This document shows, one piece after another, positions 32,633 to 62,367 of a DNA stretch of 64,000 bases. Made by a program: the position numbers and the translations under genes. Every line of letters starts with the position of its first letter. Within the stretch, counting starts at the first letter, position 1. The notes below the pieces were generated by a model. The model saw only the letters and a program-made list of their open reading frames with translations, searched no databases and was not told where the DNA came from. Source of the stretch: a bacterium (lineage in GTDB: Bacteria > Armatimonadota > Fimbriimonadia > Fimbriimonadales > Fimbriimonadaceae); the NCBI GenBank assembly GCA_013823945.1, contig PNMZ01000002.1, positions 310,001 to 374,000 on the forward strand. Reading direction: 5' to 3'.

Positions 32633-34624
32633 TTAGGATGTTGGCGGGGGTACTCGGTTTCCGCGTCGTTGCTCATTGCCTCCGCGCCCTTGATTGGGGT
32701 TGGATGCGCGCTGGACGTATTCATTGGCGCGTTGATTTGTTTCTTGTTGGAGCTGCTCAGGCAGTTGGGCATAAGTGCCAAAGTTCTGTGCAGCTTCAGT
32801 TGCGCCAACTCTGCGTACAAGTCGGGTGCCGTCGGGGTATTGAATTTGAATCGTGACGCTAATGGTTTTGCTCATACCGAATTGATTGAGAGTTCCGGCG
32901 ATATCTGAGTACCGGCTTCGGACTCCTCCGGAGAGTTGGGATGCTCGGAGGGAGGCAAGGTCTCGCTCGGACATTGCGACTTGGGTTTTGCCGTCTTGAG
33001 TCCGGGCAATAATGGCATCACGGGTTTGAGTTGTGACCGTAATCGTTCCTCCATTTGGGGGTGTGTTGGCGAGCCATTCGGTGCGTTCTCCGGCGAACCC
33101 ACGACCTCCGCGCTCCATGTCTTGACCGCGTCGTTCGGTTGTTTCGGCGGCTTGAGCTTGGGCTTGGGCTTGCGGATTGACTTTTGACGGTGCCCCGGGA
33201 GAGTTGAAAAGGAGCGGATTGACTACGGCTGGGCTGAGGGAGCTTGAGGGCAATTGAACCACAGTTTGAGCGGTTGCACGATTGCCGAGGGCGGCAAGGA
33301 TTTGGAGACCTTCCAGGCTGAGTCCGCTGAACGTAGAAAGTTGCGATGACGGGCTTCCTCCGAGGACTTGGCGAGCGAGCGTGTTTTCCCATCCTGAGGT
33401 GCTAAACACTTCATTGACTGAGTTGGCGTAAGCGAGTTGGGTGGCGAGACTGATTACGCCCGTCTGAGCGATTTCGGAAATGACTCGACCAAGCGCAGCT
33501 CGGTTGCGCTGAGTGACCCAAGCGTGGGTGAGAAGTTGGGGCTTGATGACGAACCAATCGTCTTTCGATTCGGCGACGAGCCTCGCTTCGGGCAATCCTT
33601 TTAACCCGGACGAAATCATGGCGTTGGCAAGTGGAATCATGGATTCATCGGGGACAAATGCAACGAAATTGGTTGATTTCGGAAAGCTTGCTGTGAGTGC
33701 CGGTGCAATGGCGAAGGCCAAAGGTTCATTTTGAGCAGGATTCAGGAGAATCTGGCGCAAGGCCGAAGTGTAGGGATTTGCCGTAGGTGCAACTTGGCTG
33801 AATGCTTTCAACTTTGCAATCGCTTCTTCATCCAAAGGTGCGGCGGATGGAAGTTCGGATACGGGAGTTGATCCGGTGATGCGGTATTGCTGGGCGGCGT
33901 TAAAACGAGGATTACCATCAGCGTCAATTCCTTGAGCAGAGACGGAGTACGAGTTGAGTCCAGATCGGTAGATTGAGACGATTCGTTTGTTGACGGGGGT
34001 CGCGATTTGATCTCGAAAGGCTTGGAATCGCGCTTTCCTCTCGGCGTTTTGCTCTTGGTTAAGGCGTTGATCAATGCCGGCCAGCATGGCGGTTTGTTGG
34101 GCACTTAGGATAGTGTTGACCGCAGTTGCAGCCGCAGTAGGGAGTTGGAGTTGATTCGCATTTCTGCGATCTGCATATACAACTCGTCCGCCTATGACGA
34201 TCCGTCCGAGTTCAGCTGCCGGGAAAGCAAGCATGATTTGGTCAACAGAATTGGAGGAGTTGACGGGCGGATTTTCTTGCCAGGATTTCCAGAGATTGGT
34301 CGAATACTCGAAATATGTTTGGAGGGCTTTCTGTTCGATTTCCGGCGAGCGATCCAATCGGTATCCGCCGTCGGCTTGGAACCAGGTGAGCCCTGTGGCA
34401 TTGCCGATCTGAGTGAGCAAATCTGTGGGCAGAACACCTTTGGCTTGGATAATAACCGAAAGGTTCTCGAACTGAGAATTGACAGAAAGTTTCAGTCCTG
34501 TAGCTTCAGAGAGGTCGGGAATGAGATTTTTTAGACTCTTTCCGGGGGTTTCAAAGTCGAGGGGAAGTGCGAGCGCGGAGACGCCCAAAGTGAGGGTTCC
34601 GATGATCAGCCGGAATTGATTCAT
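32633..34624 (-). CDS. Large exported STN-domain protein, family of unknown function (copy 1)
   Basis: A 663-residue exported protein. A short signal peptide is followed by an STN-like domain (about residues 22-95) with SVNSQFENLSVIIQAKGVLP, as in secretin and TonB-receptor N-termini, but no secretin barrel follows. The middle has IGGRVVYADRRNANQLQLP, and further on FVAFVPDESM and VTQRNRAALGRVISEIAQTG. The C-terminus is Gln, Asn, Gly and Arg rich, and low-complexity. The protein at 44321 shares the same order of blocks (VGEKVVYSSAPNRLQ, FVAVVPDE), so the two are paralogues. The start is 14 bases from divergent rluD. The function is unknown. Confidence 0.72.
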   Translation of the reverse strand: MNQFRLIIGTLTLGVSALALPLDFETPGKSLKNLIPDLSEATGLKLSVNSQFENLSVIIQAKGVLPTDLLTQIGNATGLTWFQADGGYRLDRSPEIEQKALQTYFEYSTNLWKSWQENPPVNSSNSVDQIMLAFPAAELGRIVIGGRVVYADRRNANQLQLPTAAATAVNTILSAQQTAMLAGIDQRLNQEQNAERKARFQAFRDQIATPVNKRIVSIYRSGLNSYSVSAQGIDADGNPRFNAAQQYRITGSTPVSELPSAAPLDEEAIAKLKAFSQVAPTANPYTSALRQILLNPAQNEPLAFAIAPALTASFPKSTNFVAFVPDESMIPLANAMISSGLKGLPEARLVAESKDDWFVIKPQLLTHAWVTQRNRAALGRVISEIAQTGVISLATQLAYANSVNEVFSTSGWENTLARQVLGGSPSSQLSTFSGLSLEGLQILAALGNRATAQTVVQLPSSSLSPAVVNPLLFNSPGAPSKVNPQAQAQAQAAETTERRGQDMERGGRGFAGERTEWLANTPPNGGTITVTTQTRDAIIARTQDGKTQVAMSERDLASLRASQLSGGVRSRYSDIAGTLNQFGMSKTISVTIQIQYPDGTRLVRRVGATEAAQNFGTYAQLPEQLQQETNQRANEYVQRASNPNQGRGGNEQRRGNRVPPPTS

Positions 34625-44225: not shown

Positions 44226-44320
44226 TTACTACTTATTGAGCCTGGAGGAAGCGAACGGATTTCTCCAGGCAATTTTATCGAAACTTTTCAGCTGTCGTGT
44301 TTCGTTGTAATGGTACGGAT

Positions 44321-46519
44321 ATGGGATTCACGGCACTTGTTTTGGCTATGGCGGTCGCGGGACAAGATCAATCGGGCTTGGATGTTCGGCTTGATCAATT
44401 TTCGGCGAGTGGTGATCGAGCGAGTTCGGTCGTCAAACAACTTGCGGAGAAAAGTGGAGAGAATTTGTTGGTTCAGCGGGAGTTGATGAACGAACCGATT
44501 TTTGCCGAGGTTCGAGGGAAAACAGTGCGCGAAGTCATGAGTGCTTTGGCGACCGCGACGTACGGGCAATGGACATCACAAAACGGGGCGATTACATTAT
44601 CGCTTTCTGGGGAAGCTCGAGAAAAGAGCAATCGAATGCTCGCCGAACGCAATCAGAAACTCATCGCCAATTTGCAAAGATCGATTGATGATCTCAAGAA
44701 ATCTGGCTGGGGGCAAGATTCCGCGCGTGAATACGTTGATCGAATAACAGATTTGAGGAAGCAGTATCGCGAAAGTGCGCAGACGGGTGAGGGCGATCGT
44801 CCGACGATTGAGGTTGCGGGCCCATCTCCCAAGGGAGTGGAGCGACTTGTTTTGGGGACTATCATGGAGCAGCTGACTCCGTCGCTCCTGGTGAATTTGA
44901 AAGTTGGCGAAAAGGTTGTATATAGCTCTGCTCCGAATCGGCTTCAGAAAAGGTACCCGGCAGATATTCGTTCGGTGGTGAATCTTTATGCCAAAGCGCA
45001 TCAAGAAATTTTTGATGAGTCATCTCGTAATGTGCGAGATGATTTTGGGGCAGATTGGCGGGGCTCGTTGGGGTTACCATCTTCTCGTACTTTGAATATT
45101 ACAAAGCTCATTGCTACAGTGATGAGAGAGGATCGCGGGTGGATAGTTGGCTTCCAACTGGTTGATCCGGAAGGTGTGGAATTGGCTTATCATTCGCTCA
45201 GGGTCACTCCCAGCGGATTAGAAGCTGAGCTACCTAACGAGAAAGATTCACAAGCGGAGCAGGGAGAGCCGATACCCCTCTCTGCACTCTCGCAAGAATT
45301 TTTGACTAAGAATGGGGTTGGTTCCAACAGCAATCAGATGTCGATGGGTATGGAAGTTGGAGGGTCTTTTGTGTTGCTGAATGTGGGAAATCCGGTTCGG
45401 CCCCCGGTGTATTCGGCGGCATTGTGGAATCTTCTCGCAAACCCCGGAAAGGTCGATTTCTTGAATGTCCTCATTCCAGAACTACTCAAACACAAGTTTG
45501 GTGAGAGGAGTTTCGTCGCCGTCGTGCCGGACGAGGTTTGGCAAAGGTTGGTCACGGGGGCAAACGGAGCCGCGATGCGGGAGGAGTTTGCTATTCAAGC
45601 CCTGAGAGATTTCACTGAGGAAGTACAGGAAGACGGTTTCTCAATCGTTCGGGCCCAGGATCCGATGGTCGTTTTGCAAAGTCGGGTTAATCGAGATGAT
45701 ATGCAGCGATTGACGAGTGCCATCCACGGGCGAGGATTTGCCAAAGTAGCGGAAGTCGCAGATTATGCCTCAAAGCGCGGCATTCGTCTGTTTGAGCAAT
45801 TGCCGGACATGATGGTTTTTGCCCTTTCAATTCCTTTCACGGTTGAGGATTTGATATCGACTTTTCGCTTAAATCTCGATTTGGCGGATTACATTGTTGC
45901 AACTCCCGAGTTCAAAGCGAATGCTGAGTTGGGCTCAAAAACGTGGATTTATGGACAGATGAATCCGGGGCAACGGGAAGCCTATGAGCGGATGCTCTTT
46001 GCCAGCACGCCAACGATTACTCAAGATTCAGGGTCGTTTTCGATTTCGGTGTCAATGGGTGAAAGGCCCGCAGAAAAGCGAATGGCCGTTGATCGCGAAC
46101 CTACCGAACAGTTCGGGATGGGGATACCCAATGAGACTGAGTTTTCTATGGAAGTGAAGCCATTTCCGGGTGTTTTGGGAAAGGTGAAGAATCATCCGAA
46201 TGGGAGCTTGATGACGGCAGCGCAGTTGGGTGGCATGATCGGATTTGGGGAGGGAAGCACCGGGGAATTTCAGGTGACCCAGTTTGATGAATTTTATCAA
46301 GCGAGAGTTTCAAGCATTCAATTTGTAGATCCGGTGACTCGTTACTCGATTCAAATGGCGGATGGAGTCTTGGTGTCTCAAGCCCGGGCTTTGAAGTTCA
46401 ATGACCTGGGGAGCGACATTCTGAGCAAAGCCGAGGAAGCGAGAAAGTTGATGAGGGAAGCGGCAAAGAACATGGGGCGCCCGAGGCAGAATGTTCCTCC
46501 AAACGATATTCGACGATAG
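44321..46519 (+). CDS. Large exported STN-domain protein, family of unknown function (copy 2)
   Basis: A 732-residue exported protein from ATG 44321 (MGFTALVLAMAVAG, signal peptide). Residues about 20-100 are an STN-like domain (SVVKQLAEKSGENLLVQREL, then VREVMSALATATYGQW). Later blocks are VGEKVVYSSAPNRLQKRYPA, RSFVAVVPDEVW, and QSRVNRDDMQRLTSAIHGRG. These match the protein at 32633 in order and spacing, though overall similarity is low. There is no secretin barrel and no transmembrane domain, so it may be periplasmic or secreted. A TGTAAT lies nine bases before the ATG. The function is unknown. Confidence 0.72.
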   Translation: MGFTALVLAMAVAGQDQSGLDVRLDQFSASGDRASSVVKQLAEKSGENLLVQRELMNEPIFAEVRGKTVREVMSALATATYGQWTSQNGAITLSLSGEAREKSNRMLAERNQKLIANLQRSIDDLKKSGWGQDSAREYVDRITDLRKQYRESAQTGEGDRPTIEVAGPSPKGVERLVLGTIMEQLTPSLLVNLKVGEKVVYSSAPNRLQKRYPADIRSVVNLYAKAHQEIFDESSRNVRDDFGADWRGSLGLPSSRTLNITKLIATVMREDRGWIVGFQLVDPEGVELAYHSLRVTPSGLEAELPNEKDSQAEQGEPIPLSALSQEFLTKNGVGSNSNQMSMGMEVGGSFVLLNVGNPVRPPVYSAALWNLLANPGKVDFLNVLIPELLKHKFGERSFVAVVPDEVWQRLVTGANGAAMREEFAIQALRDFTEEVQEDGFSIVRAQDPMVVLQSRVNRDDMQRLTSAIHGRGFAKVAEVADYASKRGIRLFEQLPDMMVFALSIPFTVEDLISTFRLNLDLADYIVATPEFKANAELGSKTWIYGQMNPGQREAYERMLFASTPTITQDSGSFSISVSMGERPAEKRMAVDREPTEQFGMGIPNETEFSMEVKPFPGVLGKVKNHPNGSLMTAAQLGGMIGFGEGSTGEFQVTQFDEFYQARVSSIQFVDPVTRYSIQMADGVLVSQARALKFNDLGSDILSKAEEARKLMREAAKNMGRPRQNVPPNDIRR

Positions 46520-50447: not shown

Positions 50448-51203
50448 TTAGTTTCCGCCGCCGCGTCCGCCGCGACCCATCATGTTGCGCATTTCTTCGT
50501 CAACTTTGGGGTCTCGCTCAAACTTGGGGCCCTTCATTGATTCAAACTTTGTCTTTTGCTCCCCGTTGAGAACTTTGACCAGTTCGCCATCGAGGATACG
50601 ATTATTTTCTTCCATCAGCGGTCTGATCTCCGTGCGATCGATTTCGCCATTTTGCGCACGTGCGAAGATGGCTTGGTTGGCGTCATTCATTGCCTTTTCC
50701 AAGTCTTCAACTTGCCGTCGCTGTGCTGTAGAGAATCCAAGTTCCTTCTGGGTTTTCTCTTCCATGATGGCGCGATTGCCTTTCATTTGGAGTTCAATTT
50801 GACCGAGGCGGGCTTTTTGTGCATCGTCGATGAGTGCGAGTGATTTCTCGTTCAGATCGGTCGACATCTTTTCCATATCCTTTTGGATGGTGGTGAAGTC
50901 CGGTCGTTCGCCTCCTTGGCCGCCCTGACCACCTTGTCCGCGCATACCTTCAAACATGGCCATGAGTTTGTCGCGATACTCTTTTTGGAGAGCTTCGAGT
51001 TTGGTTGTTTGGTCGGTCGAGAGCTTGAGGTCTTTGTGGACGTCTTTGCGGGCCAGGAGCATTCCCGGACCTTGCATCATGTTTCCGCCCATCATGCCGC
51101 CACGGCCCTGTCCGCCGCCTCGGCCCTGAGCTTCTGCGCCGAGTGGAAGCGCCACAACGCAGAGAGCGAGGGCGGCGCATGCGATTGATTTGAAGTTAGT
51201 CAT
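50448..51203 (-). CDS. Spy/LTxxQ-like exported protein, last gene of the gsp operon
   Basis: A 251-residue exported protein. The signal peptide ends in GAEAQ; a Gly/Met/Arg-rich stretch (GRGGMMGGNMMQ) follows. The rest is helical, with LKLSTDQTTKLEALQKEY and LGFSTAQRRQVEDLEKAM, repeating units of the LTxxQ type, and a Gly-rich C-terminal tail. Its end TKFESMKGPKFERDP resembles that of the protein at 17756, so both look paralogous. Its ATG overlaps the gspD stop by eight bases, so it is cotranslated with the secretin. A chaperone or assembly helper is a guess. Confidence 0.72.
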   Translation of the reverse strand: MTNFKSIACAALALCVVALPLGAEAQGRGGGQGRGGMMGGNMMQGPGMLLARKDVHKDLKLSTDQTTKLEALQKEYRDKLMAMFEGMRGQGGQGGQGGERPDFTTIQKDMEKMSTDLNEKSLALIDDAQKARLGQIELQMKGNRAIMEEKTQKELGFSTAQRRQVEDLEKAMNDANQAIFARAQNGEIDRTEIRPLMEENNRILDGELVKVLNGEQKTKFESMKGPKFERDPKVDEEMRNMMGRGGRGGGN

Positions 51204-53619
51204 TTCCGATTTCCTTTTTGGGTCCGGACTTGATTCCGGAATTGTTTTTTGCCGTTGGGGGAAGGCTTTGTTGCACTCCCTTTTGGCTTTGGGGACTGAG
51301 TCGTTGCACTTCGTCTGATTTCAGCTTGCCAGCTTCTTCTGGACTGCGCACAATTCGGGGTGTGAGGAAGACCAGGAGCTCGGTCTTGACTTCACCTTTT
51401 TCGCGCGATTTGAAAAGCTCTCCTAGAATGGGAATATCTCCAAGCAGAGGTACTTTTCGGACTTTACTGGTGACCGTGCTCCGCATGATTCCGCCAAGAA
51501 CGATGGTTTCGCCATCTTGCGCTGAAACAGTCGTGAATGCTTGCCTTTGGTTTACGATTGGGGCGTTAAAGTCCGTGAATCCTTGGAGATCGTTCGCGGT
51601 TTGGGTGACATCGAGCGTCACCGTTCCATTTGAAGTGATTCGAGGAACAACGTTGAGAACGATTCCGACATCTTGGAAGGCATAGTTGAAGGTGAGGTTG
51701 CCGTTGGCATCCTCTCGAGTTGAGAGGATGTAAGGAACGCTTTGCGAGATGTTGATCTCGGCTTCAACGTTGTTGCTCGTGAAGATTCGCGGGGTGCTGA
51801 GCACCTGGAATTTATCATCGGTGCTGAGCGCATTGAGGAACGCGCTGAAGTTCTGCCCGGTGATGGTGTAGCGAAGACCGTCGAGTGGGGGGTTAGCTCC
51901 ACCGAGATTGAAGTCTGTCGCTCCGGTACCGGTGCCGCTGTTTCCAAACGGTCGGTCTTGGGTGAAATTCCACTCTACGCCGAGCTTCATTGAGCTATCC
52001 AAGGTTGCCTCGACGATCAAGGTTTCGATCATGACTTGCTCGGGGATTTTGTCCAACTGACCTAGGATTTGGCGAACCAATTCCATGTTGTCAGGTGCAG
52101 TCACGATGATCAAGCTGTTGGTGTTCGGATCTGGAATGATGCTGACTTGTCCGGAGAGATCGCGGACATTCACGAGTCGCCCATCGGCATTACGAGCAAC
52201 GTTGTTTGTTCCGCCTTGCTGCGTGTTTTGGCGTCCACCAAGTTGACCAAAGAAGCCGCCCTGCTGGGTTCTGACTTGAGTGTAGAGTTCGTCTGATCCT
52301 TCTTCAAATTCGAGAAGTAGTTCGTTTTCGCCTTTTGCATTAGGCTCAAATCGAGCTGCGCTTTCTTCGACTCCTCGGCCTGTTCCGAGTCCACCACCTC
52401 CTCCTCCGCCTCCTGTATTTCGGTTGCGGTTTTGATTGGTGTTAGTTCGATTTGTATTATTGCCTCCAAATTGGTTGCCGCGCCCGGTGTTTCGTGAACC
52501 GAATGCGCTGTTCAGTAGATCAGCGACGGTATCGGCCCGAGCGTTGCTCAAGGGGATGACGAATGTAGTGTTTTCGACTTCGACTTCTTTATCGAGTTCG
52601 ACCATCAGGGTGTCGAGAATTTTGTGGGCTTCGGCAGTAGCCGAGACGATTAAGGAGTTCGAACGGGGATCGGCACTGACATTGGCTTCGCCTTGACCCG
52701 GACCAGCAACTCGCCGGAGGAATCCGCCAAATCCGCCTTGATTCGCTTGTCCGGTGTTGCCTCGTCCTTGGGGTGCGTTGGCGGTGAGTACAGTCTGTAC
52801 CGTCGTCACCAGGTCTGGTGCTGAGGCAAATTCAAGGGTGTAAACCCGAGTTTGTAGTGGAGCATCGGTGAGCTTATCAATTTCCGCTATGAGGTCTTCG
52901 ACATCGCGTTGCTTTTCGCGCGGAGCGTTGACGATGACAGAGTTGCTGAAGTCATCAGCAGATGCTCGTACTGTCGGGCCCTGCTGTTGACCGAAGTTGA
53001 AGTTGCCAAAGGAGAAGCCACCACCGCCTCGTCCTCCACGACCACCTTGTCCACCACCGCCAAAAGCTGCAAAAGGATTATTAGCTTGTTGTTGTTGCTG
53101 AAAGACTTCGTTGATCACACGGGCGACTTCGGATGCGCTTGCGTACTGGACTCGGTAGACCTTGAGCTCAACGTTTTGTGTACCCCCCATCATTGCGGCC
53201 AAAGCTGCGGGATCAAACCCGGTACTGCCACGTTCTTCGCGTCGGGGCTTGATGAGAAGAACGTTGCCTTGCTTTTCAAATTGATAATTTCGGACACTGA
53301 GAGCGGCGTTGAGGACTTCAAATGCTTCTTTGATGGGCACAGCTTTGGGGGTGCTGAGCGTCATAGCGTCTTTCAGGTTGGGATCTTTAACGATTGTGAT
53401 GCCTGAAACCTTCATAAAAAGGTCGAGAACAAGATCAACGTTCGCGTTTCGGAAGTTGAGCTTAACCGTCTTGTTGGGTAGATCGAACTGCTCCCAGGCG
53501 TTCCGGCTCGATGAGCTTTGGGCACTGCCCCCCGTTGAGAATTGGGCGTGTACCGTTGCAGGTGCAACCATGCCAAGGGCGATGGCGAGGGTACTAACGA
53601 GTAGCGTTCGATGCTTCAT
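51196..53619 (-). CDS. gspD: Type II secretion system secretin GspD
   Basis: An 807-residue outer-membrane secretin. The signal peptide ends in TVHAQ. An N0-type domain follows (NKTVKLNFRNANVDLVLDLF), then N1-N3 domains with PTVRASADDFSNSVIVNAP and SADPRSNSLIVSATAEAH. A large insert of poly-Gly and Gln/Asn (residues about 395-480) separates N3 from the rest. The barrel part has VPLLGDIPILGELFKSRE and KTELLVFLTPRIV. It forms the gated pore of the system. Overlap with the upstream gspC-like gene is 26 bases. Export through the inner membrane is by Sec. Confidence 0.94.
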   Translation of the reverse strand: MKHRTLLVSTLAIALGMVAPATVHAQFSTGGSAQSSSSRNAWEQFDLPNKTVKLNFRNANVDLVLDLFMKVSGITIVKDPNLKDAMTLSTPKAVPIKEAFEVLNAALSVRNYQFEKQGNVLLIKPRREERGSTGFDPAALAAMMGGTQNVELKVYRVQYASASEVARVINEVFQQQQQANNPFAAFGGGGQGGRGGRGGGGFSFGNFNFGQQQGPTVRASADDFSNSVIVNAPREKQRDVEDLIAEIDKLTDAPLQTRVYTLEFASAPDLVTTVQTVLTANAPQGRGNTGQANQGGFGGFLRRVAGPGQGEANVSADPRSNSLIVSATAEAHKILDTLMVELDKEVEVENTTFVIPLSNARADTVADLLNSAFGSRNTGRGNQFGGNNTNRTNTNQNRNRNTGGGGGGGGLGTGRGVEESAARFEPNAKGENELLLEFEEGSDELYTQVRTQQGGFFGQLGGRQNTQQGGTNNVARNADGRLVNVRDLSGQVSIIPDPNTNSLIIVTAPDNMELVRQILGQLDKIPEQVMIETLIVEATLDSSMKLGVEWNFTQDRPFGNSGTGTGATDFNLGGANPPLDGLRYTITGQNFSAFLNALSTDDKFQVLSTPRIFTSNNVEAEINISQSVPYILSTREDANGNLTFNYAFQDVGIVLNVVPRITSNGTVTLDVTQTANDLQGFTDFNAPIVNQRQAFTTVSAQDGETIVLGGIMRSTVTSKVRKVPLLGDIPILGELFKSREKGEVKTELLVFLTPRIVRSPEEAGKLKSDEVQRLSPQSQKGVQQSLPPTAKNNSGIKSGPKKEIGND

Positions 53620-54256
53620 TGTTTGTTGTCCTATTTGATTCGGTTGAATTGTTTTGGGCGTTGGCTTGCGAAATTCCGATTTGTCCCGAAAGCGGGTTCA
53701 GGGGAGCGTTTTGGGCATTGAGTTCGACGATTGGTCGGTTTTCAAGAAGGGTGAAAAGCTTGGATTCGCCCGATGGTCCGGTCAGAACGATTGTGTTCGT
53801 ACTGATATCGGTGAGCGTTGCACTTTTTAAGGTCTGACCAAGCGTGAGGTATTCCCCTTGATTATCGGTTGCGTTTTCCAGGAGGGCCATTCGTTGACCA
53901 TCTGCAGTAACGATGCCCGTGAGGAACCATCCATTTTCTCCATTCATGAAATTAGCGGGAATTTGATTCGGGAGTTCTGCTCCTCGATTTGATTTTTTAC
54001 CATCGTCGACTACGGCAGGCTTGAACGCATTGTTGATGGGTTCATCAAGCCGAGCAAACCGTGCATTTTCGTCATCTTCGGTGAATTTGGACTCTTTTGC
54101 TGTCCTTGATGAAGATCGAGTGGAGGTTGAAGATGTCTTGGTTGCGCCGTCGAGCGAGCTTTTGGCATCTGGCTCTGGTTCGGTCATGATGAAGCCGACA
54201 ACGCCGATCACGGCGACACCGATGTACAGGAAAAGGCGCTTATTCGTTGGCTTCAC
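53594..54256 (-). CDS. GspC/PilP-like inner-membrane protein
   Basis: A 220-residue protein with one N-terminal membrane helix (LFLYIGVAVIGVVGFIM), a disordered Ser/Thr/Asp linker, and a small beta-domain (GWFLTGIVTADGQRMALLEN, then SKLFTLLENRPIVEL) similar to the HR domain of GspC or PilP. In such systems this protein links the inner-membrane platform to the secretin. The C-terminal 30 residues are Asn/Ser-rich. It overlaps both neighbours. The assignment is by position and fold-like features, not by a firm motif. Confidence 0.65.
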   Translation of the reverse strand: MKPTNKRLFLYIGVAVIGVVGFIMTEPEPDAKSSLDGATKTSSTSTRSSSRTAKESKFTEDDENARFARLDEPINNAFKPAVVDDGKKSNRGAELPNQIPANFMNGENGWFLTGIVTADGQRMALLENATDNQGEYLTLGQTLKSATLTDISTNTIVLTGPSGESKLFTLLENRPIVELNAQNAPLNPLSGQIGISQANAQNNSTESNRTTNNEASNATR

Positions 54257-54890
54257 TTTTTGCTTCTCCTGGTGCAGACGAACTGGCGGGGGAATCGTTC
54301 GGCGTTTTTTCGTCCTTTAGGGACGTTTCTTTGGATTTTTCGCGGGATTCTCGAGATTTTTCGACGGCAGGTTGTTTGACGTAGGCAATAACGGCGACCG
54401 TTGCATTCACTTTGTCGGATTCTTGATCGCTCGAGGAAATCTGCACTTGGCTGACTCCTAGTCGATTAGCGGCTGAATCAAGCGCCCGAACAAAGCTCGC
54501 GACTTGGGGAAATGTGCCATCGATCAGGAGGACATAGTTGCCTCGGGAGAGGTCTCCGTCGGCAACGGGGGTTTGGGGTCGGAAGCTCTTGAGGTTCACC
54601 CCATGAGCTTTTGCAATCACGCTTATGCTCTGCAGTATCTGCGGCGTGATTGTCTCGGTCTGTCCTTCCCAGAGAGCCGGATTCTGTTTCTTGAGCGACT
54701 GCTGATTGGCAAGATTGAGGTTTAGCTCTTTTTGTGCTTTTTCGAGCCGGAGTTTGCCCGCACGTTCCGCGATTTCGGGATCTGGTTTAGGAACGACGAA
54801 AAAGAAGGCTGCAATCCCGGCGAGGCATAGAAGCAACAGTACAGTGAGGATGTTGTAAGTTCGTAGATTGTTGCCTAGTTCAAAGTTCAT
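54240..54890 (-). CDS. PilO/GspM-like inner-membrane protein
   Basis: A 216-residue protein with one N-terminal membrane helix (ILTVLLLLCLAGIAAFFFVV), a coiled-coil stretch and a ferredoxin-like domain containing GNYVLLIDGTFPQVASFVRA. This is the PilO/GspM layout. The C-terminal 50 residues are charged and disordered (KSRESREKSKETSLKDEK). With the GspL-like protein it forms the inner-membrane platform. The ATGA overlap with gspL supports coupling. Confidence 0.8.
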   Translation of the reverse strand: MNFELGNNLRTYNILTVLLLLCLAGIAAFFFVVPKPDPEIAERAGKLRLEKAQKELNLNLANQQSLKKQNPALWEGQTETITPQILQSISVIAKAHGVNLKSFRPQTPVADGDLSRGNYVLLIDGTFPQVASFVRALDSAANRLGVSQVQISSSDQESDKVNATVAVIAYVKQPAVEKSRESREKSKETSLKDEKTPNDSPASSSAPGEAKSEANE

Positions 54891-56161
54891 CTTGATCGTC
54901 CTCCTCTCGTTTCTTTACGGGGTTCGGCGAGGGGTAAGTTTCCAACCACATGAGCAGTAACGGAGAATTGGACAACGGGAGTATCTCCGATGTTGTTGTT
55001 GTTTGAAAATGCCAACTTAACTTCACGGAGACGGGGCGTTGCGCTGAGAGTGTCTACGAATGCCGCTACTTGAGCATTGCTGAGCGCGGTTCCACGCACA
55101 GAAAGGTCTTTGCCTCGTTCAATACTGGCTCCTGTGAGCCAAAGCCCATCGGGTGCGGCATTGGCGGCGATCGTGAGAATGTCGCCAATTGCCTGCCGGG
55201 GTTGAAGGCCGTCGCTGACGAGCTGCATCTGTTCTTCGATCTTGGTTGATTCCGTTCGAATACGCCCGATCTGGGCATTGATCCGATCAACTTTGCCGTT
55301 GTAGTCGGTTTGGACTTTGGCGAAAGCGGCGGAATCTTCGTCGTGGGCCATCCAAGTGAATACTCCGGCGATAAACAATGAGCCGGCGAGGAGTCCGACA
55401 AGTCGTTTACGGGCTCCAAGTTTTGCACCGGCGGCTTTGGCTAAATCTTCGGGGAGGCGAAGGTTGATGGACGTGGGATGGTGGGCAACTTTACTGAGGG
55501 GGTGCTCAGAGAATGTTCGAACGTTGGGGCTGACTAATTCTCGCAGCGAGTCGTGGGCGAGTGGAGCGGTTGATGATTGTCCACCTGCGGCGATGTTACG
55601 CCGGATTTCGGTATCCATTTCAGCGGTTGTCGTCATGGAATGGGTGACTCGGCTGGAATCGATGTTGCCATGAGTGATGACATCAAATGAAGTTCCTTCC
55701 GCACAGGGAGCCATCACAAGGGAAGATTTGCCCGGATCGCCACAAAGAATGGAACCCAAGCCAGCCGGAATCATCGATTCAATTTTTGTTCCGGCGTGTT
55801 GGAAGAGGGCGCGGGCTTGTTTGAGTGTTTCTGCTCGGGTGGCAAAAACGACGAACTCACGGCCTTCTGAATCGATACTTTCGGTTGGATGAATATCGAA
55901 GGCCAGTTCATTGGCTGGAACTGGGAAGAGTTCTTCCAGTCGAAACCGAACGAGGTTGCGCACTTCATCAATTTCCAGATCAGGAAGACGAAGACTACGC
56001 TGGAAGTATTGGCGCCTTCCAAGAGCTAAATTGATCCGTCTGGGGCTGCCAATTGCGCGAAGTGCTTCGGTCGGGGTGACATGTTGACTGATTTGCCCAG
56101 ATGAGGGATCGAGGGCAAGGCAGTTTTCCGGCGACCATTCAATGATGGGTAAGTGACTCAT
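54887..56161 (-). CDS. gspL: GspL-like platform protein (PilM/PilN-type)
   Basis: A 424-residue protein. Residues about 1-240 resemble the actin-like cytoplasmic domain of GspL/PilM (LALGRRQYFQRSLRLPDLEI, then VRFRLEELFPVPANELAFDI). One membrane helix is at about 257-275 (VGLLAGSLFIAGVFTWMA). A PilN-like periplasmic part follows, with a coiled coil (INAQIGRIRTESTKIEEQM) and DGLWLTGASIERGKDLSVRG. It connects the ATPase GspE to the platform. It begins one base after gspK ends. Confidence 0.82.
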   Translation of the reverse strand: MSHLPIIEWSPENCLALDPSSGQISQHVTPTEALRAIGSPRRINLALGRRQYFQRSLRLPDLEIDEVRNLVRFRLEELFPVPANELAFDIHPTESIDSEGREFVVFATRAETLKQARALFQHAGTKIESMIPAGLGSILCGDPGKSSLVMAPCAEGTSFDVITHGNIDSSRVTHSMTTTAEMDTEIRRNIAAGGQSSTAPLAHDSLRELVSPNVRTFSEHPLSKVAHHPTSINLRLPEDLAKAAGAKLGARKRLVGLLAGSLFIAGVFTWMAHDEDSAAFAKVQTDYNGKVDRINAQIGRIRTESTKIEEQMQLVSDGLQPRQAIGDILTIAANAAPDGLWLTGASIERGKDLSVRGTALSNAQVAAFVDTLSATPRLREVKLAFSNNNNIGDTPVVQFSVTAHVVGNLPLAEPRKETRGGRSR

Positions 56162-57409
56162 TTAATTGGGTTCCTCCAGGAGGGATTGATCGGACAAGGG
56201 ATCGATTTCCCAGCCCCAGCGGGTGAGAGGATCGCGTTCGATTGGACGGTTCAGTTGGAGGAGTCTCGGTTGACCGTCGACAATGTTGACTATGGCTTCA
56301 GCGTAAGAGCGGGCGGGGCCGCGTCGTCCTTCGAGTCTAATCAGAAATGTTTGCGACCCGATAGTCAGAAAATCGGCAAGTTGCTGTAATGAGTTTGTGC
56401 TTATGCCGGGGACTTCTGTGATATCGCCAAGTTGTTCAAATGAGCCTTGCCGAGTGAGGATGCCCTGGACTTGATCATCGTTGATTTCGGGGATAGTTCG
56501 GAGGACTGCTTCCGGCGCAGTATTGACGTTGATTTTGCCGTTGAGGAAGTTCTCGGCGGAAATCGTTGCCACGTTGAGAATCACCTCGGCATCTTGAAGA
56601 TTGAGGCCGTTAACGGCGAAGACTTGGTTCAAACTGGTGAATTGACCTTGGGTGTTGCGCCGCTGAATAATGGCCTGAGCAGCTTGGTTGGAAATCCCGG
56701 CTTGCACAAGTTGAGGATTTTGGGCAATGTTGAGGTTGACTCGCTCGGTTCCGTCTTGACGACGGTTCGGGGAGCGCGATTCTATTGTGAGGATATCAAT
56801 GGGCGCAGGTTGATCTTCTATGTTCCCAGAAAGGAGAGCGTTTCCGCCGTTGTTTTGGGGCGGAAAGAGGACGTCGGCGGGCGTGAATTCGCGAACGAGT
56901 AAGAGTTCGGAAACAGAGTCAAATCGGCGCAGCTTGACGTTATAAGGGGTGGTGAGTGTGTTGTAATATTCGTCTTTCGCTCCGAGTTGCCTGGGCTGAA
57001 GTTGGTCTTCGCGCCAGTCGAGAATAGCGGCCACTTGATTTTCGGTGAAATTGAGTTGTTCAAATTGCTCTTCGGTGGCCGTATTCAAATTGACGAATCG
57101 AGTTGTGTCGATGATTTGGATACGAACAGAAGAATCAGCAACCGTGAAGGCGATGGAACCGGTTTCGCCTAAGTTGAACCATTCATCATTTGTTGTTGTG
57201 ACGTTGATGTTGGCATCGACGAGTGAAGCCATGGCCCGGGACAGTCCCGCTTGAATTGCGAGTTCGGTTTTTCTTCGATCAATTCGGCTCGACTCGGATT
57301 TGATATGAGAGTCAAGGCGCAAGCTGAAACTCGTCACGACCAGGGTCAAGATGACCATGGTCGCCAGGGCAAGCATGAAAGCACTCCCGGCTTGCTTCGT
57401 ACGTTTCAA
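56162..57409 (-). CDS. gspK: Type II secretion minor pseudopilin GspK
   Basis: A 415-residue GspK. The N-terminal helix is preceded by a basic leader (AGSAFMLALATMVILTLVV); unlike other pseudopilins it has no Glu at +5, as usual for GspK. Two helix-hairpin-helix-like parts follow: FVNLNTATEEQFEQLNF and INVNTAPEAVLRTIPEINDD. It caps the pseudopilus with GspI and GspJ. It overlaps gspJ by four bases. Confidence 0.9.
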   Translation of the reverse strand: MKRTKQAGSAFMLALATMVILTLVVTSFSLRLDSHIKSESSRIDRRKTELAIQAGLSRAMASLVDANINVTTTNDEWFNLGETGSIAFTVADSSVRIQIIDTTRFVNLNTATEEQFEQLNFTENQVAAILDWREDQLQPRQLGAKDEYYNTLTTPYNVKLRRFDSVSELLLVREFTPADVLFPPQNNGGNALLSGNIEDQPAPIDILTIESRSPNRRQDGTERVNLNIAQNPQLVQAGISNQAAQAIIQRRNTQGQFTSLNQVFAVNGLNLQDAEVILNVATISAENFLNGKINVNTAPEAVLRTIPEINDDQVQGILTRQGSFEQLGDITEVPGISTNSLQQLADFLTIGSQTFLIRLEGRRGPARSYAEAIVNIVDGQPRLLQLNRPIERDPLTRWGWEIDPLSDQSLLEEPN

Positions 57410-58128
57410 GGTCCAGTACCTCCAGTTGATTCTTGGGTGATGGGATTTTCGGCGGTGACATCGCTGGTCGGGATGCGGAATGTGAGGTATTCGGGCTCTT
57501 CCTCTTCGCGCTCAAGGGTGAGGCGGACAGCCGGGGGAATACGGCGAGAACCACCGTTGACGGTGTCCCAAGCGTCCACCCATTGCGCCCCATCCCAGAA
57601 TTCATAGATGACATTGGTGACTTCGGGGAAGAGGAGGCGTTCAGTTCCCCCTTGTGTGGGGTCTCCGTCGGCAGGAGTTTGGATGCGGAGGAAAAGTCCA
57701 GCGCGATCGTCACCAGGATCGCCGACGGGTTGGATATTGAGGCTGACTTCGCTGAGACCTCCTTGTGGTCCAAAACGCTCATTGAGGTCTTCAAAAGTGG
57801 AATCTTGATCGAGCAAGAAGCCGCCATCTATCCGGCGGCTGAGGGTGGTGAAAGTGAGGGAGTCCGCAGTTGTTGATTGACCAGTGGCGTTCGCAGCAAC
57901 AAAGTAGGTGAGCCGGTCATCGTTGTCATCCGACACAAAAGTGCCTTCGATTAGGCTCTCAAGAGTTCTGCGGTTTTGAATTTGGTCTTGGAAGGCATTG
58001 AGACGTTCGGGGGTCTTGCGGCTGTAGTCAACGGTGATTTGGTAAGCAGTTGCAATCGATCCGATCAAAAGCAGGGTCATCGTCATTGCAATGATCAGCT
58101 CGATAAAGGTGAAGCCTCTCTTCTGCAC
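57406..58128 (-). CDS. gspJ: Type II secretion minor pseudopilin GspJ
   Basis: A 240-residue minor pseudopilin. The leader and helix MQKRGFTFIELIIAMTM have Gly at -1 and Glu at +5. The globular part ends DVTAENPITQESTGGTGP. FWDGAQWVDAWDT matches the GspJ core (Y/F-x-x-x-W-x-x-x-W). It overlaps gspI by one base and gspK by four. Confidence 0.9.
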   Translation of the reverse strand: MQKRGFTFIELIIAMTMTLLLIGSIATAYQITVDYSRKTPERLNAFQDQIQNRRTLESLIEGTFVSDDNDDRLTYFVAANATGQSTTADSLTFTTLSRRIDGGFLLDQDSTFEDLNERFGPQGGLSEVSLNIQPVGDPGDDRAGLFLRIQTPADGDPTQGGTERLLFPEVTNVIYEFWDGAQWVDAWDTVNGGSRRIPPAVRLTLEREEEEPEYLTFRIPTSDVTAENPITQESTGGTGP

Positions 58129-58517
58129 TAGGTCCCTCCACCCTCGGCAGTTCCGGTTGGTGCAGGAGCGGTGAAAACGATCGTGCTGATCGAATTTTCA
58201 CCTTTGTTCTGGCTGGAAACAGTGAGAGTAAGCCCAGTCAGGTTCTCGACTCCGACGTTCGTTTCTTGTAGGGACCAGGTGTAGTCACGGAGTCGTTCGT
58301 CGTCAAACGTACCTCCAGCTTCTGACTGCCAGGCTTGAGTTGCGATCAACTCCTGGAGCTTCTCGTGAGCGATTCGATCAATGAAATCCTTTTCGGCAAC
58401 GGCGCGTTCGGCACGCATCAGCCCAGATATTGCTCCGACGAGGGCGGTGATACCAACGGCCAAAAGAACAGCGGCAACAAGAACTTCGACGAGAGTGAAA
58501 CTGCGCTTAGCCGACAC
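58128..58517 (-). CDS. gspI: Type II secretion minor pseudopilin GspI
   Basis: A 129-residue minor pseudopilin from GTG 58517, which gives the short leader VSAKRS before FTLVEVLVAAVLLAVGI, with Glu at +5. An in-frame ATG at 58538 is an alternative. The residue before the cleaved Phe is Ser, not Gly. The rest (HEKLQELIATQAWQSEAGG) matches the GspI core. A GGGGAG lies ten bases before the GTG. The start overlaps the end of gspH by 11 bases. Confidence 0.85.
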   Translation of the reverse strand: MSAKRSFTLVEVLVAAVLLAVGITALVGAISGLMRAERAVAEKDFIDRIAHEKLQELIATQAWQSEAGGTFDDERLRDYTWSLQETNVGVENLTGLTLTVSSQNKGENSISTIVFTAPAPTGTAEGGGT

Positions 58518-59073
58518 GTTGTTCAATCTCCCCGGCATCCCATTCTTCTTCAGCTTGTTCGCTGAGAGTGCCTTGAATGATCCTTGTGGAACCGCTTTGC
58601 GGATTGACGATGAGGAGGAATGTTTGATCGTCTTGTGAGAATTCAAGATAGGCCCGGTCGGCTGATCCATCGGGATAAAATCCGACTTGCCATTCGTCTC
58701 GCGATACATCTTGCCGATTGAGCTCGTAAGTCAGTATCTCGGTTGTGGGCGTTGGTTGGATGGCATCTCGAACCGCCCCGAGTTCCACCTCATCAGAATC
58801 AGCACCATTTGCAATTTGCTCTTCAGTTTGGTCTTCAATAAAATCCCATCCGATTTGACCATCAGCGTTAAATTTGAGCGCGGTTGCGCGGTTTTGGCGG
58901 ATAGCTTCGGTTCGCGCTTTTTGGGCGATGCTTTCGACGCTTTGTCGGAATCCAATTGCGGCTTGTGACCGCTGGATGGCTCCGATCGAGGGATACACAG
59001 TTGCCGCCAGCAGGATGATCAAGAAGATCACCGTGCTGACTTCAACGATTGTGAATCCTCGGCGTCGCGTCAT
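58507..59073 (-). CDS. gspH: Type II secretion minor pseudopilin GspH
   Basis: A 188-residue pseudopilin. The leader and helix TRRRGFTIVEVSTVIFLIIL have Gly at -1 and Glu at +5. A GspH-type beta domain follows, with KARTEAIRQNRATALKF and EWQVGFYPDGSADRAY near its end. It lies between gspG and gspI in the canonical order. The gap to gspG is 11 bases. Confidence 0.88.
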   Translation of the reverse strand: MTRRRGFTIVEVSTVIFLIILLAATVYPSIGAIQRSQAAIGFRQSVESIAQKARTEAIRQNRATALKFNADGQIGWDFIEDQTEEQIANGADSDEVELGAVRDAIQPTPTTEILTYELNRQDVSRDEWQVGFYPDGSADRAYLEFSQDDQTFLLIVNPQSGSTRIIQGTLSEQAEEEWDAGEIEQRVG

Positions 59074-59084
59074 TGGGTTTGAAC

Positions 59085-59525
59085 TTACTCGCCGGATTCG
59101 ATGATGTCTTCGGCTTCGCCTGTACCGCCAGGTGCGCCGTCGCTGCCGTAGCTGAGAAGAACGAATGACTCGTCACCATCGGGGCCGGGCCACTCGTAGA
59201 TGTAAGGATTGTTCCAAGGGTCATTTGGAAGTGGCTTGGTGAGATACGGCCCTTTCCATCCTTGGGCATCGGAAGGTTGGGTGCGAAGCGATTCCAAACC
59301 TTCATCGGATGTCGGGTAGTAGCCGACATCAAGCCGGTAAGTGTCAAGCATTTTTTGAAGGTTAACGAGATCACCTTTTGCTTTGGCTTGTTTGGCATCG
59401 GCGGATCGGCTGACAATTCGGGGCACGATCATTGCGGCGAGGATCGCCAAGATGAGCATGACCACGAGAAGCTCGATCAAGGTGAACGCTTTTCGGGTTT
59501 TGGGTGACGTGCGAGGATTTTTCAT
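59085..59525 (-). CDS. gspG: Type II secretion major pseudopilin GspG
   Basis: A 146-residue major pseudopilin. The helix is preceded by RKAFTLIELLVVMLILAI, with Ala at -1 and Glu at +5. The globular part has YRLDVGYYPTSDEGLESL, GWKGPYLTKPLPNDPW and GDESFVLLSYGSDG with the calcium-site Asp residues: this is the GspG consensus. It is the main subunit of the pseudopilus. It overlaps gspF by four bases. Confidence 0.95.
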   Translation of the reverse strand: MKNPRTSPKTRKAFTLIELLVVMLILAILAAMIVPRIVSRSADAKQAKAKGDLVNLQKMLDTYRLDVGYYPTSDEGLESLRTQPSDAQGWKGPYLTKPLPNDPWNNPYIYEWPGPDGDESFVLLSYGSDGAPGGTGEAEDIIESGE

Positions 59526-60745
59526 TTGACAAGTTCCTGTGCTTGGAAAATGGGGAGCATAACGCTCAGAACGACAAAAGCGACAAAGGCGCCCATGACG
59601 AGAACAATGACGGGCTCGAGGGCGGATGTGAGGCGGCGGAGGCCTTGTTCAACTTCAAAATCAAGGCTATCGGCGACCCGAGAAAGCATTTTGGGAAGGT
59701 CACCCGTTTCTTCGCCGATGGCGACCATGTGCGTGAGAACCGGGGGAAATTCTCCTGTATCTTTCATGGCTTGGGCAATGGGAATTCCTTCTTTTACATC
59801 TTGAAGAACCTGGGCTGATGTGCTGCTGAAGACTCGGTTTCCAGCAGCGCGACCAGCGAGTTCCAAGGCTTCGAGAATATTGACGCCGCCGTTGACGAGT
59901 GTTCCGAGAACACGGGCGTACCGACTGACCACGGACTTTTTGATAATTGATCCGCCGAGCGGCAGATTCATGACCAGACGATCTTTGGCGAGGGCACCAG
60001 CGGGGGTCGCAACCCAGCCTCGGAAAGCAAAGAACCCAACAACGAGGGCGATGGTGATCGCGGTTGCATTTCCGGTTAAGAATCCGGTTGTAGCGAGGAG
60101 CACCTTGGTCATGGTGGGGAGGCTGTCGCCCATCCCTTCAAACACTCCGCTCAACCGAGGGACAACAAACGTCAAAAGGAACACAACGACGAAAATGGCA
60201 ACCCCTGTGAGGACGGCGGGGTAAACGAGGGCGGAGGTGACTTGGGACCGGCGGGCGACTTCACCTTCTAGAAGGTCAGCCATGCGTTCGGCGGATTCTG
60301 AGAATTGCCCCGAAGCTTCTCCGGCCCGGAGAGTTTGGGTATAGACCTCGGGAAAAAGCTTGGATCCTTGTAAGGCTAGTGAATCACTGACCGCAAGTCC
60401 GCCTTGGACTTCTTCAAGTGCACCTTCGGCGGCTTTGGCCAGGGGAAGAGCTTCTGTTTGTTCGGCAAGGACGGTCAGAACTCGGTCTAGTGGGAGCCCT
60501 GCGCTTGAGAGATCGGCCATTCGACGAGTGAACAGAGCAAGGTCAGCCCGATTTGACCGGCTCTTTTTCTTTTCTCCTTCGGAACTCCGCTTGGTTTCGC
60601 TGGTTTTGGCCTGCTCTTTAATATCGAGCAAGAATTTGCCTTCTTTTGTCAGGATGGCAACTGCCGCGTTTTGATCCGGTGCATCAAGAACACCATTCCG
60701 TTTGCGGCCTGACGCTTCGACGGCGGAGTAAGCGAAAGTAGGCAA
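59522..60745 (-). CDS. gspF: Type II secretion platform protein GspF
   Basis: A 407-residue inner-membrane protein with two T2SSF domains and three membrane helices. TRRMADLSSAGLPLDRVLTV, RAGEASGQFSESAERMADLL and the second repeat GEETGDLPKMLSRVADSLDF are the family marks. The first 100 residues are cytoplasmic. It anchors the pseudopilus platform. The gap to gspE is three bases. Confidence 0.95.
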   Translation of the reverse strand: MPTFAYSAVEASGRKRNGVLDAPDQNAAVAILTKEGKFLLDIKEQAKTSETKRSSEGEKKKSRSNRADLALFTRRMADLSSAGLPLDRVLTVLAEQTEALPLAKAAEGALEEVQGGLAVSDSLALQGSKLFPEVYTQTLRAGEASGQFSESAERMADLLEGEVARRSQVTSALVYPAVLTGVAIFVVVFLLTFVVPRLSGVFEGMGDSLPTMTKVLLATTGFLTGNATAITIALVVGFFAFRGWVATPAGALAKDRLVMNLPLGGSIIKKSVVSRYARVLGTLVNGGVNILEALELAGRAAGNRVFSSTSAQVLQDVKEGIPIAQAMKDTGEFPPVLTHMVAIGEETGDLPKMLSRVADSLDFEVEQGLRRLTSALEPVIVLVMGAFVAFVVLSVMLPIFQAQELVK

Positions 60746-60748
60746 AGG

Positions 60749-62311
60749 TTAGATATCCTCCCTCTGACAAACCCTCAGTACTTCTTCGGCGGTTGTTTGG
60801 CCTTCAAGAACCGCCAAGCGCCCCTCTCCCAGGAGCGTTCTCATGTTTTGGTGCTTGAGAGCGTGATCTTTGATCGCACTGGCAGGGGCATGTTCGACGG
60901 TCATCCGGCGAACCTCTTCATCCACTGACATCAGTTCATAAAGCCCTCGTCGTCCTTTGAACCCGGAGCCACCGCATTTTTCACATCCGGTTCCAGCGCG
61001 GAAGGGCGGATTTTTGGGATCGTAGTCGTCGGGTGAAATTCCAATTGCGGCAAGAATTTCGGCTTTCTCAACATACGGTGCTGTGCAGTTACTGCAGTTG
61101 GTGCGAAGAAGTCGCTGGGCGCAAACGCCAACAATTGAAGATGCGGCGAGGTACGGTTCAACGCCCATATCGAGAAGCCGCGTGATCGCGCTCGGAGCGT
61201 CATTGGTGTGCAATGTACTGAAAACAAGGTGACCCGTCAGAGCCGCATGGATGGCGATTTCGGCGGTTTCATGGTCGCGAATTTCACCAACCATGATGAC
61301 GTCGGGGTCTTGGCGGACAATGGACCGGAGTCCGGAGGCAAAGGTCAGGCCGATATTCGCCCGAACTTGAATCTGACCAATTCCGGCGACCTGATATTCG
61401 ACGGGGTCTTCAATAGTGAGGATGTTAAGTTTGGGGCTGTAAATTTCTTGAAGGCTTGCGTAGAGCGTGGTTGACTTTCCGGAACCAGTCGGGCCAGTGA
61501 CAAGGATCATCCCGTATGGAATACCGATAACTTTGCGGAACGTTTTGAATGTGTCTTCGCGCATCCCAAGTTGGGGAAGCGTGAACATGCTGGTTCCTTT
61601 GTCGAGTATCCGCATGACTGCGCGCTCACCGTGGACGGTGGGCACGATTGAAACCCGTACGTCAACTTGGCGAGCACCGATGGTGAGTTTGATACGACCA
61701 TCCTGGGGAAGGCGACGCTCGGCGATATTGAGTTCAGCAAGAATTTTGAGTCGAGAAATGACCGCCGCGTGCATCCGGCGAGCGGGAGACATGGCATCTT
61801 TGAGAATGCCATCAATTCGGAACCGAATCTTGAGTTCCTTTTCGTAAGGTTCGACGTGGATGTCACTGACGCCGTCGCGAACGGCTTGAGCGAACATCAG
61901 GTTCACCATCTGAACGACTGCGGCCTCTCCTGCCAGCTTTTGGAGGTCGGCAAGGTCGCTGGTTTCGTCGACGTCAATAAAGTTAGATTCGTCGGTGCCG
62001 GAAATGTCCCCGAGCATTCCTTCGAGGTAGCGTTTTTCGAGTTGGTCTCGAATCATCGCCGGGTCGGCAAGAAAGACTTCTACATTTTTTCCGACGAGGA
62101 CAGCGAGATCGTCGGTCGCAGAAATGGACTTGAGGCTACCGATGGCGACGTTCAGGGTGCCGTTTTGGGTTGAGAGGGGAAGAAGTTGATGCTTGAGGGC
62201 AAAGTCTCGCGGAACAAGGTCGATGACATCATTGGATGGCTTAGTTTCTTCAAGATTGATATAGCCAAATCCAAGATCAGCTGCTTGTTCATGTTCGGGA
62301 GTAATCGCCAC
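60749..62311 (-). CDS. gspE: Type II secretion ATPase GspE
   Basis: A 520-residue ATPase from GTG 62311 (the frame is open to TTG 62335). The N-terminal MshEN-like domain has LVPRDFALKHQLLPLS. The ATPase has GPTGSGKSTTLYASLQEI (Walker A), LNILTIEDPVEYQVAG (Asp box), VRQDPDVIMVGEIRDHETAE (Walker B) and HLVFSTLHTNDA (His box). The CxxC zinc region is CSNC ... CEKCGGSGFKGR. A GAGGA lies 11 bases before the GTG. The upstream 13-codon leader ORF ends in that box. First gene of the operon. Confidence 0.95.
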   Translation of the reverse strand: MAITPEHEQAADLGFGYINLEETKPSNDVIDLVPRDFALKHQLLPLSTQNGTLNVAIGSLKSISATDDLAVLVGKNVEVFLADPAMIRDQLEKRYLEGMLGDISGTDESNFIDVDETSDLADLQKLAGEAAVVQMVNLMFAQAVRDGVSDIHVEPYEKELKIRFRIDGILKDAMSPARRMHAAVISRLKILAELNIAERRLPQDGRIKLTIGARQVDVRVSIVPTVHGERAVMRILDKGTSMFTLPQLGMREDTFKTFRKVIGIPYGMILVTGPTGSGKSTTLYASLQEIYSPKLNILTIEDPVEYQVAGIGQIQVRANIGLTFASGLRSIVRQDPDVIMVGEIRDHETAEIAIHAALTGHLVFSTLHTNDAPSAITRLLDMGVEPYLAASSIVGVCAQRLLRTNCSNCTAPYVEKAEILAAIGISPDDYDPKNPPFRAGTGCEKCGGSGFKGRRGLYELMSVDEEVRRMTVEHAPASAIKDHALKHQNMRTLLGEGRLAVLEGQTTAEEVLRVCQREDI

Positions 62312-62325
62312 CGTTTGTTTTGTCC

Positions 62326-62367
62326 TCAAATGCAAGTAACCGGGGTACTGACGGCATTGATCGCCAT
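62326..62367 (-). CDS. Possible 13-residue leader peptide upstream of gspE
   Basis: A 14-codon frame (MAINAVSTPVTCI plus stop) with GAGG eight bases before its ATG. Its TGA overlaps the GAGGA box of gspE, the layout of a coupled leader peptide. No homologue or attenuator stem is seen, so the call is tentative. Confidence 0.35.
   Translation of the reverse strand: MAINAVSTPVTCI

Follow-up and report, generated by a model that had tools for sequence, protein, structure and literature searches.

An exported, multi-copy protein family of Armatimonadota with a new architecture around the STN/N0 domain

Two genes in the 64,000-nucleotide stretch of Fimbriimonadaceae DNA analysed here (hereafter, the window) encode diverged members of one protein family. 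Gene A (32633–34624, minus strand) specifies an exported protein of 663 amino acids and gene B (44321–46519, plus strand) one of 732. Several lines of evidence strongly support that A and B are old paralogs of a soluble, exported family that is present in multiple copies in Armatimonadota. Equally strong support exists for the order of elements along the chain: a signal peptide, an STN/N0 domain (STN1), a core carrying a VVY block and a degenerate second STN-like domain (STN2) that includes a VPDE sequence, followed by helices, a second copy of the core motif, a beta domain and a disordered tail ending in Pro-Pro. The family, previously unnamed, sets a known domain in a new architecture, and no paper on it was retrieved in literature searches.

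Gene models and domain organization

Both gene models rest on open reading frames, orthologs (syntenic ones in the case of B) and dN/dS ratios. The plus strand at 32633–34624 is interrupted by stops and contains no open frame. The leuS gene lies downstream of A in the same orientation, after a gap of 42 bp. The annotated starts of A and of the divergent rluD (34624 and 34639) are separated by 14 bp, and the real rluD start is probably located further downstream. For B, an upstream GTG at 44297 is a possible alternative start.

The signal peptides described for both proteins in the initial annotation were recovered, as Sec-type ones, by a crude hydropathy test; in A the peptide comprises residues 1–20 (MNQFRLIIGTLTLGVSALA-LP; 34565–34624, minus strand). 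A signal-peptide-like N-terminus is present in 66 of 71 family members, as judged by crude hydropathy rather than by a trained predictor, and comparable tests detected no internal transmembrane segment or lipobox that is consistent across members.

The signal peptide of A is followed by STN1 (residues 20–95; 34340–34567, minus strand), which adopts the beta-alpha-beta-beta-alpha-beta-beta arrangement of the STN/N0 fold in the AF2 model. The best structural match in VIA-align is PupR (Z 9.3, rmsd 2.0, 73 residues aligned), followed by the FecR-like protein 4m0n (Z 8.2) and the secretin N0 domains of MxiD (Z 7.7), PilQ and XcpQ (Z 7.6 each), within a large set of N0/STN entries matched at Z 7–9.3, with an rmsd of about 2 over 72–76 residues. 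Furthermore, a family profile built from 45 full-length members (A1) matches the N0 domain of a secretin encoded in the window's genome (E 1e-7). The Pfam STN model (PF07660) does not exceed its curated cut-off in either A or B; it matches only one of the 45 members of the order, at E 0.041, and in a distant member, L092, it reaches E 2.8e-6, its 27.4 bits falling just short of the 28.4 required. The STN-like domain originally proposed for A is thus borne out by the predicted fold, although Pfam makes no STN call. The corresponding domain of B occupies about residues 19–98 (44375–44614, plus strand), according to the A1 alignment and to BLASTP with A.

Despite sharing this fold with secretins, A and B differ from them in lacking a barrel and in having their own second, internal STN-like domain and a long unique core. 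The absence of a TonB or secretin barrel, noted from the outset, holds for both proteins by Pfam and for A by the AF2 model: the secretin domain PF00263 has no Pfam match in A, B or 43 relatives, and neither the plug nor the 22-strand barrel of TonB-dependent transducers was found in the family by Pfam or in the AF2 model.

The full-length model of A, predicted by AlphaFold with the A1 alignment, has a pLDDT of 89.0 and a pTM of 0.85, while its second module (residues 255–650) folded alone gives a pLDDT of 88.7. Structure prediction of the middle domain, a step suggested in the initial annotation, reveals a module-1 core (residues 126–251; 33872–34249, minus strand) made of helices, a strand holding the VVY sequence, long helices and a three-strand sheet. 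STN2 of A (residues 287–362; 33539–33766) precedes the helices that open with the RNRAALGR block (residues 373–380; 33485–33508). Further downstream are the C-terminal motif (residues 434–475; 33200–33325), which the AF2 model and HMM comparison indicate as the module-2 counterpart of the VVY block, and the module-2 beta domain (residues 527–609; 32798–33046), which is seen in the AF2 models. The chain ends with a Gly/Arg-rich tail (residues 642–663; 32636–32701), predicted as disordered by its low pLDDT and terminating in PPPTS; all these features lie on the minus strand.

This tail, overlooked earlier, is a recurrent trait of the family. Pro-Pro is found within five residues of the stop in 39 of 58 members, compared with 7 of 209 other ORFs from the same loci and none of the 37 exported-like ORFs among them. 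The Pro-Pro(-Pro) ending comes after a Gly/Arg-rich disordered stretch.

Searches for a named family agree with the first impression that no known one fits: none was matched for A or B in Pfam, NCBIfam or the PDB, and residues 96–663 of A gave none in Pfam, NCBIfam, PHROGs, PADLOC or PDB sequences. Module 2 of A alone has no PDB fold match above Z 3.1, a result that does not exclude relatives; its STN2 part taken separately had no match in the PDB, and its beta domain had no confident one. A structure search of BFVD returned STN-type or spurious matches only. Several candidates were discarded: below-cut-off matches to UBX, KorB_C, kinesin and malate:quinone oxidoreductase were treated as chance; low probabilities and a large rmsd disqualified the Foldseek matches of the C-terminal part to Bet v 1, hotdog thioesterases and phage portals; and a PURA match to the module-1 core (Z 3.1) and the C-terminal part (Z 2.9) was too weak to use.

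Homology of A and B and a probable internal duplication

The relationship between A and B extends well beyond the STN domain. BLASTP aligns the two proteins with an E-value of 2e-6 and 21% identity over 480 amino acids. Ortholog profiles from which the STN domain had been removed still align in hhalign with a probability of 99.8% (E 2.9e-28, 482 columns), while none of 30 controls with shuffled columns exceeded 0.4%; the portions after residue 365 also align by themselves (97.7%, E 1.5e-12). The significance of the STN-less alignment excludes the view that the resemblance stops at the STN domain.

Three blocks originally listed as shared do keep a common order in the two proteins, starting at residues 148 (A) and 199 (B) for VVY, 320 and 398 for FVA-x-VPDE, and about 374 and 457 for NR-x-x-[LM]-x-R; the spacings first given for them were slightly off. 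Alignments and HMMs define the first block as VVYADRRNANQ in A (residues 148–158; 34151–34183, minus strand), and alignments define it as VVYSSAPNRLQ in B (residues 199–209; 44915–44947, plus strand), so that the real spacing is VVY-x4-N in both; its final glutamine, Q158 in A numbering, is invariant across the family. The third block, aligned as RVNRDDMQR in B (residues 455–463; 45683–45709, plus strand), has QRNR instead of R-x-N-R in A. A further conserved block, E-x-T-E-x-x-P-x-G-x-P, had been missed; it begins at residue 513 of A (residues 513–521 in the A1 alignment; 33062–33088, minus strand) and at residue 593 of B (EPTEQFGMGIP, residues 593–603; 46097–46129, plus strand). Among the 45 A1 members, R375, E513 and T515 are each conserved in at least 90%. 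Together with Q158 and D326, they form a set of polar residues maintained despite a family identity of approximately 20%.

The VPDE sequence turned out not to be an independent motif. HMM comparisons with distant members place it within a second STN-like domain, as FVAFVPDE in A (residues 320–327) and FVAVVPDE in B (residues 398–405); the domain in B spans about residues 376–450 (45446–45670, plus strand) according to the A1 alignment and HMM. Comparison of profiles suggests that a module with STN at its start was probably duplicated in these proteins and that the two copies then diverged. In an alignment of 15 distant members, the VPDE region aligns with STN1 (93.8%, E 1.6e-7, 59 columns) and the VVY region aligns with the C-terminal motif LRxYxxLSPxQRxxLxxGxPLP (85.6%, E 5.6e-6, 33 columns), whereas controls with reversed and shuffled columns reached at most 1.7% (shuffle maxima of 1.6–1.7%). 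When queried against the whole alignment, the off-diagonal matches were the expected ones (93.1, 68.8, 32.9 and 25.6%), being weaker for three of the four queries.

The repeat was not detected in the order-level alignment alone. STN2 of the distant members matches both STN2 (92.7%) and STN1 (94.1%) of the order, whereas their STN1 matches the order's STN2 at only 1.2%; STN2 in A and B is therefore identified indirectly, via the distant members. STN2 of A lacks two strands of the STN fold. Given this loss and the lack of a PDB match for module 2, the second module may no longer act as an STN domain. An internal STN-like domain would be unusual, since a 2020 survey of more than 8000 STN proteins found the domain at the N-terminus in all of them except PupR (PMC7186176).

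Single-module relatives are found in the same phylum. Two exported proteins of 255 amino acids with a signal peptide (L129, 753–1520; L134, 802–1569) have an STN domain (E 4.9e-12 and 1.7e-16) and the same core motif (E 1.2e-5 and 3.1e-4), in one module rather than two. From the profile evidence we infer that the family arose by duplication of a single-module ancestor, comprising STN, core motif and beta part, with which the short proteins fit. Other armatimonad proteins (L130, 854–1603; L131, 806–1585; L132, 759–1622) combine two STN-like domains with a C-terminal zinc ribbon (CPxC...YCPMCGxW), and three further STN proteins, L127, L128 and L133, are short and exported, with tails rich in Gly.

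Distribution, synteny and divergence

Considered initially as a two-member family, the group has in fact expanded across the order, where a single locus can hold as many as seven tandem copies, and has distant members in other classes. The window's genome yielded only A and B. Among 61 relatives, a match with A was obtained in 42 genomes and with B in 46. Searches with the A1 profile, in which the best three candidates per genome were scored, returned full-length matches throughout the order. Outside it, the best E-values were weaker and part of the matches may be secretins, for which reason nine genomes were scanned in full. These contain ORFs of 600–860 amino acids that match the N-terminal (about 8–207) and C-terminal (about 400–560) parts of the profile in one frame, indicating that the family is not confined to the order. 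It occurs in most of the genomes sampled in the order and also in other classes of Armatimonadota; some complete relatives do not have it, which implies that its job is dispensable. Of the named relatives, Armatimonadetes bacterium Uphvl-Ar1 (CP021423) is the closest; it was the sole match of a single-protein scan, with A 95% identical. This bacterium comes from a Microcystis culture and has been placed in Fimbriimonadaceae (PMC5629041).

Tandem arrays were read directly in three genomes, with seven copies head to tail in G020 (C23), five in G024 (C3) and three in G050 (C23). A divergent dppA-like gene (M55 D-aminopeptidase-like) lies beside arrays in two genera (L065, 15842–16684; L072, 3736–4590).

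The genomic setting of both genes is conserved. In each of the eight genomes of the genus, gene A is flanked by leuS and rluD/radC, and the same holds for G022, which has two tandem copies there; a family member adjoins leuS in G032 and G010 too, extending the linkage to at least four genera. The neighbours of B are kept in G003, G004, G005 and G006, and the G001 copy is near a VPS10-like gene. In Uphvl-Ar1/G006, this VPS10-like neighbour is split into two ORFs (L112, 9169 and 9810), perhaps by a frameshift or an assembly error.

The suggestion of an old duplication is supported by a quick tree of 71 rows, in which A and B fall into separate clades (SH-aLRT 99 each). As G021 has members in both, the A/B split is older than the genus. 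The deeper branches of this tree are weak. The array members of one genome group together, so the expansions are lineage-specific.

The dN/dS ratios between G000 and Uphvl-Ar1 are 0.053 for A and 0.067 for B, with neighbouring genes at 0.009–0.14; these low values indicate purifying selection and, hence, that A and B are real, constrained genes. Over longer distances, identity falls to 28–41% in A and 26–33% in B, compared with 75–86% in leuS, 57–75% in rluD and 86–87% in Mqn. Both genes diverge more than nearly all of their neighbours, and only a TPR gene is similar in this respect.

Possible roles in the cell envelope

A widespread, tandem-expanded family of exported N0/STN proteins that is contained in none of the libraries searched is indicative, in a phylum whose envelopes are almost unstudied, of a lineage-specific function in the envelope or in secretion. 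The favoured reading, to which we assign a probability of about 0.35, is that A and B are exported docking or scaffold proteins that bind or oligomerise through their STN modules. Such a protein would work in the envelope or extracellularly. Like N0/STN domains elsewhere, STN1 would mediate protein contacts, its partner being a copy of the same protein, a different member of the family or an envelope protein that binds STN. Specific binding would be the task of the paralogs' cores, which diverge fast, and the Pro tail would serve as a recognition or attachment peptide. The STN subdomain of PupR is part of its receptor-binding CCSSD (PMC7186176), and in Xanthomonas VirB7 the N0 domain mediates oligomerisation (PMC3093366); by analogy with both, the N0/STN module of A and B most likely makes protein contacts. 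VirB7 (XAC2622) and Legionella DotD are likewise exported, carry an N0 domain and lack a barrel. However, both are small lipoproteins that belong to type IV secretion systems, whereas members of the A/B family have 650–900 amino acids and no consistent lipobox, and type IV secretion neighbours were not seen.

The conserved polar residues Q158, D326, R375, E513 and T515 could equally mean an enzyme. An exported enzyme or a secreted substrate, for instance of a type II secretion system (T2SS), with an STN-type N-terminus before a catalytic or binding core, is accordingly the next candidate, although we consider it improbable. The retention of these residues at about 20% identity, the soluble and exported nature of the proteins and a tandem expansion like that of other secreted hydrolase families agree with this proposal, as does the alignment of the N-terminal part of the BT1017 methylesterase with STN1 (Z 5.0). 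Against it, no catalytic family was matched in Pfam, NCBIfam or the PDB, and the loci read have no constant metabolic neighbours.

Only slightly behind in our estimation, a structural protein of a coat, matrix or adhesive layer, with paralogs diversifying in response to ecological pressure, would account for the multi-copy lineage-specific arrays, for syntenic orthologs with 25–41% identity beside neighbours with 57–88%, and for the disordered Gly/Arg/Pro tail. The low dN/dS between close relatives (0.05–0.07) is at odds with such diversification, and no known S-layer or adhesin domain was found.

Two readings centred on assembly are doubtful to the same degree. In one of them, tandem STN modules would assemble in the envelope, independently of any secretin, into oligomers or hetero-oligomers with paralogs as interchangeable subunits and a Pro tail that attaches or sorts them; if true, this would represent an envelope assembly specific to Armatimonadota. 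In the other, the protein would assist a secretin of a T2SS or type IV pilus, or help to assemble it, with STN1 stacking onto the N0 ring formed by GspD or PilQ. The N0 fold, the sequence link to a secretin of the same genome, the presence of four secretins in that genome and the position of B, which is separated by about 5 kb from the gspD gene of a T2SS-type operon in a neighbourhood kept in the genus, all speak for a secretin partner. Nevertheless, A is nowhere near secretion genes, and the copy numbers do not correspond, with at least 12 copies in the G020 and G024 loci read versus four and five secretins. A partner would be expected to co-evolve slowly, yet B is 32–33% identical where GspD is 76–79%. 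The role of obligate secretin assembly partner, advanced at first, is contradicted by G016, a 100% complete genome of the same taxonomic family that encodes four secretins but no relative of A and B.

Finally, a cell-surface-signalling sensor of the FecR/TonB kind is very improbable and, in its known form, contradicted: although the PupR sigma regulator, with its periplasmic STN domain and no barrel, is the best structural match of STN1, it is an inner-membrane-anchored protein whose STN is C-terminal (PMC7186176), whereas A and B have an N-terminal STN, a signal peptide, no internal transmembrane segment and no FecR match, and the window's genome lacks both the TonB plug and the FecR domain, the latter also being absent from 6 of 11 family-carrying genomes tested.

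The T2SS-type operon of the window extends over 51196–62335 on the minus strand and comprises gspE, gspF, pseudopilins, gspK/L/M-like genes and gspD, after which a Spy-like exported protein of 251 amino acids is encoded (50448–51203).
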